Of a stretch of 64,000 bases of DNA, positions 2,230-16,135 are shown piece after piece (position 1 is the first letter of the stretch; each line of letters opens with the position of its first letter). The stretch lies in contig CM067365.1 in NCBI GenBank assembly GCA_034401795.1, positions 13,187,666 through 13,251,665 of the forward strand, written 5' to 3'. The notes below the pieces were generated by a model. The model searched no databases, was not told the origin of the DNA, and saw only the letters and a list, made by a program, of their open reading frames with translations. The DNA comes from Chaetoderma sp. LZ-2023a (taxonomy: Eukaryota; Mollusca; Caudofoveata; Chaetodermatida; Chaetodermatidae). Both the position numbers and the translations under genes were made by a program.

Positions 2230-2547
2230 CACCCAGCAGCAGTAGTAGTATCAGCAGCAGTACTAGTAGGAACAGCAGTATAGTAGTAGTAGGAGCAGCA
2301 ACAGCAACAACAGTAGCAGCAGCAGCAGCAGTACCAACAATAGCAACCGTGGTAGCAGTAGTAGTAGCAGCAGCAGTAGCAGTAGGAACACCAGTAGTAG
2401 TAGCAACAGCAGCAACAGTAGCAGCAGCCGCAGCAACGGCACTAGTAGTAGTAGTAGTAGTAGTAGTAGTAGTAGTAGTAGTAGTAGTAGTAGTAGTAGT
2501 AGTAGTAGTAGTAGTAGTAGTAGTAGTAGTAGTAGTAGTAGTAGTAG
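2230..2547. repeat. (GTA/GCA)n microsatellite, LINE target, 5' side
   Basis: An imperfect GCA/GTA/ACA trinucleotide array becomes pure (GTA)n from about 2440 to 2547. The first LINE copy starts at the last repeat unit. Long poly-Val and poly-Leu frames across the array are trivial consequences of the repeat. Confidence 0.95.
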
Positions 2548-3103
2548 AAGTGAACGCACGCGTTTATTTAACTCTGCAATTGCTGCCCGAATTTGTTAGT
2601 TTCTAGCGCGGTTTTGTAGATAAATTGTGTACACATATTTCGTATTAGTATTTCGTTTCAATCTTATGTTTAATTTGTAAATTCTTGTCTTGGTTGGAGC
2701 GCATTTTGTGTCTCCATTTTCTTAAGGCATTCCTCTTAGCTGGCGGTTTCCGCCATTTAATAGGTCTCCTCTTACTGTGGTCAATGCAATACATTTCTCC
2801 CCGCGCCAGTATGCTATTTCTATAGTTTGTTGGCTAGCTCATTATATTTTGCAAGATCGCTTGAGTGAGTAGATTTAATTCCATTGTCATTTGTAAGCGC
2901 AAGGATCGTACTTTGATTATATAAATCTTTATAGTCAGTTGACTGTCCTCGGTCAACTCGAACAGACTAACAAATATTTGACTGTAATATGTTAGTATGC
3001 ATTAGGAAACCACTTTAATCGGTTAAGTGTTAGTGAACCACTTAATAAGAGGTTCAAACTAACAAATATACGACTGTATTCTCTATTAGTATATTTGTTG
3101 GTA

Positions 3104-3163
3104 GGCGTCAGGGTTTCGAAAGGGGACACTATTTATTTGGTGTTTAGCTCTTTCCCTGACGTC
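3104..3163 (+). other. Conserved stem-loop in LINE A 5' UTR
   Basis: GGCGTCAGGG (3104-3113) can pair with CCCTGACGTC (3154-3163), 10 bp with one G-U pair, across a loop of about 40 nt. The same arrangement is at 9760-9819 in copy B with one extra mismatch. It lies about 75 nt upstream of the ORF1 start. A role in RNA packaging or translation is only a guess. Confidence 0.45.
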
Positions 3164-3237
3164 TTGGTATTATATATTTGCATTATCGCCATTATATATT
3201 GTAGTAGTATGGATTTCCTCTTTTTTTAAATAACACC

Positions 3238-4420
3238 ATGGCAACCTTCTATAAGCCACAACATAACAACAAAGGGGTGGGGTGTCACGGCTATCGACGT
3301 GTATCATGGGTTAAAGGACGTCGTTGTCGCGGGACCTGCTGTTTTGCAGGGGCTTATCAATGTTACTAAAACTGTATGGAATGTGGCTATGGCGAATGAA
3401 AGTATTGAGGAGAAACTGCTAGGAGAGGTCCTTGTTGTGAAAGGCGAAGTGAGTAATGTAGAAGAAATCGAGTCGGATAGGTTGTTAGTTAAAATGAATG
3501 TTCCATTGGAGATTCCAGATGAACAAATCATGAATGAACTGAAAAAGTATGGTAAAATACAGACGATTGAAAGGGAAACATATCCATTTGACAGAACTTT
3601 GGAGACTGGTGTAAGGCGCATCTGGTTTGAAAAAGTGGATAGCCCTTTGCCAAACAGATTGATGCTTGATGGAAGCTTTGTTCTGCCCTTATGGTATAGA
3701 GGGCAGATAAAAGAATGCAGAATCTGCCTTAGTACTGACCATCTTGCAGCAGATTGCCCAAATAGAAATAAATGTTTGCTCTGTGGTTTAACTGGCCATT
3801 TCAAATGGCGCTGTCCAAACAACAAAAACAACCCCACAGTAGAAGTACGCAATCCTACAATAAAGAATGCATCTGAGACAAATGCTTCTGATGACATCGC
3901 TGCAGAAGCTACCGTCGAAGTTCATGCGATTATAAAGGCGACAGAAAAGGCAGCCAATCCTATTGAAGTAACCGCAGATGATGAGATAGAAATATTAGAG
4001 GAGGGAATAACTTTAACCCCAGAAATTAATCAAAATGTGGTGGGCCCATTATGGATGTAAATGAAAGACAGACGAATGATGATAGTAACGGAGATGTAGA
4101 TCATTACTCTTTAGAAGATGACTTAATATTAGGACAGAGTAAATTTATGTCACAGAAAACAGAAAGCTCTGACGATTTCCCGCTAAGCCCGATTGATCTA
4201 AGTCAGCTTGAGGTTATGGGGAATGGTGTTGCTGCCAAATGGTGAAGTGTTAGTGCCCTATGCAACGGCGAGAGGCATTAAATATTGTCTACTGCGCCAT
4301 GATTCTGATATTTCCAAATATGAATATTTGTCTGTGGTAGAAATAGGAAACATTGAATTCGCAGAAAAATTAGGTAAATGGTCTAAGAAACGAGCTAAAA
4401 ATCAAATCAAGTTAATCTAA
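3238..4420 (+). pseudogene. LINE A ORF1, gag-like CCHC protein (broken)
   Basis: The ATG at 3238 (ACACCATGGC context) matches the ORF1 start of copy B. Relative to B, about 11 bp are missing just after the start, which shifts frame; the main frame is then open from about 3299 to 4060. It encodes a conserved region (DRLLVKMNVPLEIP, KECRICLSTDH) followed by two zinc knuckles, CRICLSTDHLAADC and CLLCGLTGHFKWRC, both C-x2-C-x4-H-x4-C. Further frameshifts follow near 4051 and 4240, and the acidic linker present in B is partly deleted. The C-terminus (EVLVPYATARGIKY to KLI) ends with TAA at 4418-4420. ORF1 proteins of this type bind the element RNA. Confidence 0.8.
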
Positions 4421-14300: not shown

Positions 14301-15143
14301 TAGCTAGAAAAACACATATGAGGCAAATAGATGCCCGGCAGTTACAAAATAAAATAAAACATGCTGTACCAATTGAATGGTTTTGTCTGCCGAATGTAAA
14401 TAAACATAGTTTGATTCTGCACTAGTTCTTGATGATGAGATGTTACAATACGAAATGAGATCCAAGGAATGGTACCACGTTATGAAACGAAAACAAGTAA
14501 CACCTCCCTTAGCAATTAAGAGATGGGATGACTCAAGCTATAAACCATCGTTGGAAAAATTTATGGAAAATCTTGCATTCTCCATACATGCCACATATGG
14601 CTCATGATTTATTGTGGCGATTACTACATCGACGGCTATGGGTGGGACACTTGACATACAAGTGCAATATAACGACTTCCGATAGGTGTTACTTTATGCC
14701 AAACAGATGAGGAAACAATCGAGCATATATTCCCAGAATGTCCAATATTATCACAATTTTGGGAGTATATCAGCCAAATCTTGGCACAATTTGGAGCTAC
14801 GCCCATTGTTCTAGAAACACATGTAGCCTTATTTAGAGAATTTGGATCGAGCGGTGTAAATATCACAAAGTCTGATAAGACCATTTTAATACCAATGCTA
14901 ACCATAGGTGTTTGGGCCATTTGGAAACATCGGTGTCCGCAGACGAAACATCCGTCCACGGGCAATCACAATAGAGCAATAAAGGCAATATTTCGTTCAT
15001 TGCTGCTGAATCATACTCCTTGCGAATATTTTAGATTAAAACAGCATGGTAAAGAAAAAGTATTCAAGGATATAAGGTGCAAAACAAACATAGTTTCAAT
15101 AAAGTTGGGAACTGTAAAAATAAATGAGCCTGCACCAGTGTAA
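11328..15143 (+). pseudogene. LINE B ORF2, endonuclease-reverse transcriptase (broken)
   Basis: Probable start ATG at 11328. The TAATG overlap of copy A reads TTAATAAC here, so that start is lost. The endonuclease keeps LNCRGF, an IQETKI block, GGDFN (intact, about 11761) and SDHN (about 12030). RT keeps SSGCNGLPVEFYQTFW, motif A as ALANEKAFNRVEWDFL (both aspartates replaced), GVRQGSSLSPLL and motif C as YADE instead of YADD. The C-terminal zinc cluster is partly readable near 14680-14750, and the end is PAPV-stop at 15143. Breaks lie near 11420, 11690, 11966, 12165-12430 (stop near 12368), 13272, 13536, 13800-13946, 14170, 14425 and 14710. It is non-functional. Confidence 0.85.
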
Positions 15144-15375
15144 ATCATTCAATTACTATAACTGTTTTATCTGCGTCTTTTAATGAATCTGTGTCTTGTA
15201 ATTCATTTTAGTCTGCATTTTAATAGTGTTATGTTTAATAATACATGGTAACGAATAAACAGACTGGGGTAATTTAATAATCAATCGTTAAAGTAAGTTG
15301 CCATTGAATTATAAAATAGTCCCGGGTAATTTTAGAAACTTGCACAGGGTTTTATAGAGTTATTTGTTCCCAGGT

Positions 15376-15880
15376 AATTTACAAAACCTTACAATAAAGT
15401 AAATCGAAAATGTAAACAAGAGCGCCATCTATTTTTCTGTAATTTTGCTGCCGACTATATGTGTTATACTACCCAAATGCTACTATGCCCGCTGATCTTT
15501 AAAGAATCAGTCCACTGGCGTTAATGATTGACTTATTTGTTATTGATTGACGAGTCACTTTTCAAATGTTGAACAGTTGCACTCGCCACACGGGCCTACT
15601 ACCACACCTGGATTGAATAGTAATTTGCTAAATCTTACAATAAAGTGAATCGAAAATGTAAACAAGAGCGCCATCTATTTTTCTGTAATTTTGCTGCCGA
15701 CTATATGTGTTATACTACCCAAATGCTACTATGCCCGCTGATCTTTAAAGAATCAGTCCACTGGCGTCAATGATTGACTTATTTGTCCTTGATTGATGAG
15801 TCACTTTTCAATTGCTGGACAGTTGCACTCACCACACGGGCCTACAACCACACCTGGATTGAATAGTAATGCCTTTGTTA
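15376..15880 (+). repeat. 246-bp tandem duplication in LINE B 3' UTR
   Basis: CTTACAATAAAG occurs at 15388 and 15634, and CCTGGATTGAATAGTAAT at 15607 and 15853, both exactly 246 bp apart. The central part, with GAGCGCCATCTATTTTTC, is identical in both units. The near-identity shows that this duplication is much younger than the divergence of the two LINE copies. Confidence 0.85.
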
Positions 15881-16017
15881 AGTTTTGTTTTGCTATCAGA
15901 TCTTTATCAGCTTATTGTTTTGTATCTATATGATTTAAGCTGTATGTATTTATAGATTGTAATAATGCTCGTTAGTTAGATACTAGTTCACCAGTTTTTT
16001 CTCTGGTGATTTGCAAC

Positions 16018-16135
16018 AGTAGTAGCAGCAGCAGTACCAACAATAACAAGAGTAGTAGTAGTAGTAGTAGTAGTAGTAGTAGTAGTAGTAGTAGTAGTAG
16101 TAGTAGTAGTAGTAGTAGTAGTAGTAGTAGTAGTT
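16018..16135. repeat. (GTA)n microsatellite between LINE B and the Penelope-like element
   Basis: GCA/GTA units from 16018 become pure (GTA)n at about 16050-16135. It is bounded on the left by the LINE B 3' end and on the right by the 3' flank of the minus-strand Penelope-like element. Confidence 0.95.

Follow-up and report, generated by a model that had tools for sequence, protein, structure and literature searches.

Two long interspersed elements (LINEs) lie in one trinucleotide array within a 64,000-nucleotide stretch of the genome of the mollusc Chaetoderma sp. LZ-2023a (GenBank assembly GCA_034401795.1, contig CM067365.1, positions 13,187,666 to 13,251,665; hereafter the window). Tabulation of the flanks of related copies across the host genome leaves little doubt that the two copies, designated A and B, are dead members of two related L1-superclade LINE families that integrate specifically into (GTA)n and sometimes into (GCA)n arrays. 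Both copies are nearly full-length but damaged, and both stand on the + strand, head to tail and in equal register to the repeat. Protein searches returned one relative of the first open reading frame (ORF), P0001, and three relatives of ORF2 (P0003, P0004 and P0005). The features of this part of the window, including the 5' and 3' untranslated regions (UTRs) and the segments encoding the apurinic/apyrimidinic (AP) endonuclease and the reverse transcriptase (RT), are as follows.

2234..2442, +, left outer part of the host target, an imperfect array of CAG/TAG/AAC triplets
2443..2546, +, target flank to the left of copy A, a (GTA)n array
2547..9159, +, copy A, a P0003-like LINE of the A family with 5' end GAAGTGAACGCAC, decayed ORFs and an A8 tail
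2547..3237, +, 5' UTR of copy A
2925..3190, +, predicted hairpin chain in the 5' UTR of copy A, z = -5.2
3238..4417, +, ORF1 remnant of copy A with CCHC knuckles, frameshifts
4420..8160, +, ORF2 remnant of copy A: AP endonuclease, RT and C-terminal part; stops and frameshifts
9127..9149, +, 3' terminal hairpin of copy A
9160..9188, +, short GTA array separating A from B
9189..16016, +, LINE copy B (B family, P0001/P0004-like); about 60 bp of the end and the A tail missing
9568..9850, +, predicted hairpin chain in the 5' UTR of copy B, z = -7.1
9893..11302, +, ORF1 remnant of copy B, two open pieces
11303..15140, +, ORF2 remnant of copy B, in pieces, start approximate
15374..15870, +, tandem duplication of 246 bp within the copy B 3' UTR
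16017..16134, +, GCA/GTA array, right outer, target

The sequence GAAGTGAACGCAC opens copy A at 2547, where it abuts the (GTA)n of 2443-2546, and opens copy B at 9189, where it is preceded by GAG(TAG)6-TCG-TAG-TC (9160-9188). At its 3' end copy A passes from the hairpin (9127-9149) through TT and A8 (9152-9159) into GAG(TAG)n. GTA-type runs of at least five units occur at just three places in the 64 kb, each at an element border. A preliminary description of the window had noted the common start directly after GTA repeats, the A-rich tail of copy A running straight into a GTA-type repeat, and the head-to-tail arrangement on the same strand and in the same phase; all of these proved accurate. 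It had also pointed out that copy B is followed by GCA/GTA repeats. The repeats are indeed there (16017-16134). However, the junction is not the natural terminus: B-type copies elsewhere in the genome (L018, L028) continue for about 60 bp beyond TTTGCAA, through a shared hairpin and into an A tail, whereas in the window TTTGCAA (ending at 16016) joins CAGTAG directly. The 3' end of copy B seen in the window is therefore secondary.

To tabulate flanks, the host genome (2.44 Gb, 2753 contigs) was searched with end sequences of the element, and in each census flanks were read for the 40 best-scored copies only. The first 5' query still contained 46 bp of GTA and was hence biased; with it (best 40 of 497 candidates) GTA or GCA was found directly upstream at 39 of 39 places outside the window (L009-L047). 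In L029-L031 just two or three repeat units lay upstream, and before them came another copy's 3' end. A GTA-free 5' query (window 2551-2850; best 40 of 1619 candidates) again gave GTA or GCA directly upstream in all 39 non-window copies, 28 of them new and 11 read before. With a 3' query (window 8860-9151; best 40 of 1581 candidates) an A-rich tail led into a GTA or GCA repeat in 38/39 flanks, the exception being L121. At loci retrieved as ten-kb segments, 20 of 21 3' flanks were arrays (exception L014). As a control, both strands of sixteen 2.5-kb stretches at round coordinates were scanned: none of 3808 overlapping 120-bp windows consisted of GYA repeat to 30%, and 11 contained any GYA run of three. 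Most of the scored copies, then, share both the target and the junction, as is characteristic of target-specific LINEs, and the specific insertion into (GTA)n that the preliminary description had proposed was borne out by the flank counts at both ends.

Several observations weigh against so strict a specificity. When half of the 100 bp upstream was required to lie in GYA runs, 26 of the 28 new copies passed; L066 (interrupted repeats) and L074 (a tandem junction) failed. A corresponding 3' measure (30% of 120 bp) was passed by 33/39, the others being five short arrays and L121. The 3' flank of L014 is not a repeat, though its 5' flank is, and neither is the 3' flank of L121, the one side read at that copy. 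Some rows are not independent, L029 and L030 having identical flanks and L104 and L116 nearly identical ones, and L096 turns into N after about 35 bp of GTA. Target duplications are unreadable inside a pure repeat. Finally, the unlisted copies among the approximately 1600 candidates per query may be less specific.

The same target is used by other families with unrelated ends. In L020, downstream of an A-family copy and in the same array, a second copy starts with a different 5' end, TC|AAAGGGAACACACG, and its ORF1 is 37-57% identical to P0001. The truncated copy of L021 is related to P0005 (58% over 678 residues). A hairpin of different sequence, common to L132 and L131, is followed by an A tail and then by GTA; from their approximate expected position we infer that these are the 3' ends of the L020 and L021 copies, and we take the two to be one family.

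Two insertions in the same array, as claimed for the window, turned out to be no peculiarity of this site. Further copies in one array, always on the same strand, were present in 8 of the 20 ten-kb loci (L013, L018, L019, L020, L021, L023, L024 and L025), and no opposite-strand pieces of these ends or proteins were found in the 20. Such clusters could have grown mainly by unequal exchange, or by duplication of units made up of element and array, with few true insertions and with duplicates inflating the census. L018 has a duplicated array in which marked blocks repeat, L029 and L030 with their identical flanks are 3.4 kb apart and separated by only (GTA)2, the spacers in L031 and L074 are only (GTA)3, and the near-identical L104 and L116 lie on two small contigs. 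Part of the clustering is probably due to duplication, as in L018 and in the 3.4-kb repeat of L029/L030. As the main explanation we nevertheless consider duplication unlikely. The arrays differ at most loci and are spread over many contigs, the copies joined in the window belong to different families, as do those joined in one array in L020 and L021, and duplication may account for some clustering but not for the choice of target.

Much less probable still is that the GTA repeats belong to the element, being carried or synthesised at its ends as in some LINEs that end in short repeats, so that insertion would involve no choice. GTA was found on the sides read in nearly all copies, and A tails pass directly to GTA, as this explanation requires. 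However, 5'-truncated copies, which lack the element start, are still joined to upstream GTA (L021, L024 and a stub of about 110 bp in L133), and the repeat is therefore target and not part of the element. The arrays are often long, imperfect and locus-specific; GCA replaces GTA upstream of L032 and L033, and in L025 the tail meets a downstream GCA array without any GTA; and the same kind of flank adjoins copies with unrelated ends. The preliminary description had named repeats belonging to the element as the finding that would speak against its proposal; the truncated copies, the GCA targets and the unrelated ends contradict it.

The position of the junctions within the repeat was largely fixed at both ends. 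Sixty-seven 5' junctions were examined, and after 11 with variant motifs had been left out of the count, GTAGTC|GAAGTG was present in 45 of 56 exact-motif junctions. At 3' junctions the base before the first (GYA)3 was A in 34 of 39 cases, G in 2, T in 2, with none in 1, and A|GTAGTA was the prevailing register. That these elements are general LINEs with a weak preference, surviving best in GTA arrays and purged elsewhere, is scarcely credible: two off-repeat 3' flanks (L014 and L121) speak for it, but the largely fixed registers point to a defined cutting step, control DNA almost never contains such arrays, and purging across most of a 2.4-Gb genome would be unlikely. Six bp are duplicated at the 5' end of L075 and L086 (GTCGAAGTCGAAGTG), which hints at slippage while the cDNA end was joined.

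For specific integration into the array the following course can be proposed. The predicted ORF2 endonuclease would nick the (TAC)n strand at one step in each three-base period. A T^A step fits best, because of the 3' register and of the known nicking habit of AP-endonuclease LINEs; C^T would also be compatible with the letters. Primed at this nick, reverse transcription would start on the A-rich RNA end that lies after the hairpin, and the other strand would be cut so that the upstream array ends ...GTAGT before C|GAAGTG. Each insertion would leave array on both sides, and the site would stay a target. Because of this, later copies of any family could land beside earlier ones, building up same-strand clusters such as A-B.

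The imperfect array of L018 contains three marked blocks, and one full copy sits after the second and before the third; a target duplication at this site, if any, therefore does not exceed the GTA stretch that separates those two blocks. The window's two outer arrays, left and right, have in common a 26-bp block (one mismatch), a length reached by 0 of 200 triplet shuffles, while its exact 22-bp part was reached by 1 of 200. A long target duplication, considered on the basis of this block, was dropped because the right array begins at the lost end of copy B and the L018 insertion took place without block duplication. A scan for imperfect duplications at 17 ten-kb loci yielded weak candidates in L012, L017 and L028 only.

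In copies A and B both ORFs are interrupted by stops and frameshifts. ORF pieces of the window matched zinc knuckle (weakly), endonuclease/exonuclease/phosphatase (just below the cut-off) and RT families. P0001 was 91% identical to copy B over 181 residues; compared piece by piece, copy A was 82-88% identical to P0003, and copy B 86-90% to P0004. P0003, a 1241-residue ORF2, contains PF03372 (1.6e-14, residues 15-241), PF00078 (3e-35, residues 534-775) and, after the RT, zf-RVT (7.6e-11); RNase H was not among its matches at E up to 0.1. An AP-type endonuclease N-terminal to the RT, present in P0003 and in the window pieces, and zf-RVT after the RT are both characters of the L1 superclade, and the AP endonuclease speaks against the restriction-like-endonuclease groups HERO and NeSL-Togen. 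Searches limited to solved structures gave L1 ORF2 as the nearest relative over endonuclease and RT (e.g. human, PDB 8uw3, E 8.4e-31). Endonuclease matches at E up to 1 were L1 endonuclease or ORF2, LR1, LTX, exonuclease III and a plant AP endonuclease, and none was named TRAS1 or R1Bm; the LR1 and LTX entries we take to be L1 loop variants.

The CCHC knuckles of ORF1 scored E 0.001-0.004, below the Pfam cut-off, its structure model had a mean predicted local distance difference test score (pLDDT) of 33.5, and no relative was found among solved structures. In the Tx1 clade, ORF1 has a fold like the RNA recognition motif alongside CCHC knuckles. In genome copies of the L018 type the ORF1 match is followed directly by the ORF2 match. 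A quick tree of 44 rows united A, B and P0003-P0005 in one supported set, in which A stood next to P0003 and B next to P0004; its outgroup of three plant rows was set by choice, and a catfish protein was the sole named animal row. Sequence comparison thus supports membership of the L1 superclade (L1 plus Tx1), and the Tx1 clade raised in the preliminary description is a candidate placement within it.

Copies in this genome were matched by P0001, P0003 and P0004 at levels reaching 98-99% within single alignments. In L018 the matches are nearly full-length (P0001, 98% over 469 residues; P0004, 99% over 1026, each a single alignment), which suggests recent activity of the B family. DNA of the relatives was confirmed neither in viral contigs, where 2 + 56 stretches matched the peptide pattern and none passed tblastn, nor in other genome contigs, where the same was true of 147 stretches.

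The preliminary description had treated A and B as copies of one element, which did not hold. In protein alignments 571 of 1014 residues (56%) are identical, and divergence at four-fold sites (118 of 195) is close to saturation; by these comparisons A and B are two families. In contrast, the 5' UTRs of A and B are 84-92% identical in 200-bp windows (91% over the first 410 aligned bp), and identity falls sharply where ORF1 begins. In a set of 20 fetched copies (13 A-type and 7 B-type) the first half of the 5' UTR differed by 0.053 among A-type copies, by 0.049 among B-type copies and by 0.054 between the families; for the second half the values were 0.180, 0.044 and 0.166, respectively. Since the families differ from each other in the first half about as much as each differs within itself, at least that half appears to have been exchanged between them. 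Best matches had hinted that A and B swapped their 5' UTRs, but distances and tree did not uphold this.

The 5' UTR may also have a conserved RNA fold. Between A and B, 66 predicted pairs were unchanged, 7 changed but kept and 0 broken, as counted on a structure derived from those two sequences themselves. Over 21 rows (19 of the 20 loci and both window copies) 1286 of 1318 cells could pair, with variants on both sides in just 3 of 64 pairs. These counts are suggestive of a conserved predicted structure but do not prove it. Rfam gave 3 matches at E up to 5, none near the gathering score.

A broader interpretation, to which we would commit ourselves only tentatively, is that trinucleotide arrays form a renewable niche shared by several LINE families of a single lineage, with multi-family clusters, trade in modules, LINE satellites and an endonuclease that reads the three-base period in a fixed register. 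Families could trade modules because they lie side by side in arrays, as may be seen in the unsorted first half of the 5' UTR, and LINE satellites could form because spacers in some clusters are near zero.

Target-specific LINEs of the Tx1 clade include Tx1 of the frog and Keno, found in U2 small nuclear RNA genes, and LINE families targeting TC and TTC repeats exist. The TRAS, SART and Waldo elements of the R1 clade resemble the present ones as AP-endonuclease LINEs in short tandem repeats, but the solved-structure matches here were L1 ORF2 and L1 endonucleases. L1 is the best solved relative over endonuclease and RT and likewise has an A-rich 3' end; unlike those of the GTA-targeting elements, its insertions are spread over the genome at short T-rich/A-rich sites, without array specificity. 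Kojima and Fujiwara reportedly screened many genomes for target-specific LINEs in 2004.

PMC4640811 names microsatellites among LINE targets and Tx1 and R1 as the main target-specific clades; it describes Togen (NeSL-related) LINEs of fish as (TG)n-specific and some HERO families as also selecting microsatellites. Tx1-clade LINEs share with the present elements an AP-type endonuclease and target-specific insertion into repeats, the target here being GTA/GCA trinucleotide arrays. Togen and HERO are likewise LINEs that select a microsatellite, but they belong to the restriction-like-endonuclease group and Togen takes a dinucleotide, whereas here an AP endonuclease goes with a trinucleotide. Microsatellite-specific DNA transposons, CryptonV, appear in PMC8869645, and PMC5035012, PMC3747384 and PMC10294476 provide context on the subject. 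LINEs with microsatellite targets are already known. A literature search, with most subscription papers and Repbase outside it, found no GTA-targeting LINE, a weak indication that the GTA target is new.

With these families a trinucleotide joins the targets of the few LINEs that are microsatellite-specific. Given first-look candidates on the order of 1600 in one genome and a sharp register, recognition by the endonuclease becomes testable. Repeat targeting, moreover, lets a genome parasite pile up in harmless DNA without hitting genes.

Some minor features of the arrays and of the window were also recorded. Beside the GTA array of L131 (about 1027-1460), roughly 50 bp of flank recur after a second GTA run, resembling an array-edge duplication. 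In the 3' flanks of L122 and L123 a TAC-type array comes after one of GTA or GCA, which makes an inverted microsatellite pair. L018 contains (about 1402-1875) a 470-bp 5' fragment without the 3' part, next to which a GTA array nevertheless stands, unlike an ordinary 5' truncation.

In the window, Penelope-like-looking fragments lie directly to the right of the GTA array (16282-17871, - strand), with a GIY-YIG match below the cut-off (E 0.062) and an RT-like motif recognized by eye. An RT fragment at 91-609 on the + strand (PF00078, 5e-9) probably derives, as judged by eye, from a long terminal repeat (LTR) retrotransposon. Self-BLAST revealed several dispersed palindromic repeats of about 85-140 bp at 43900-52900.

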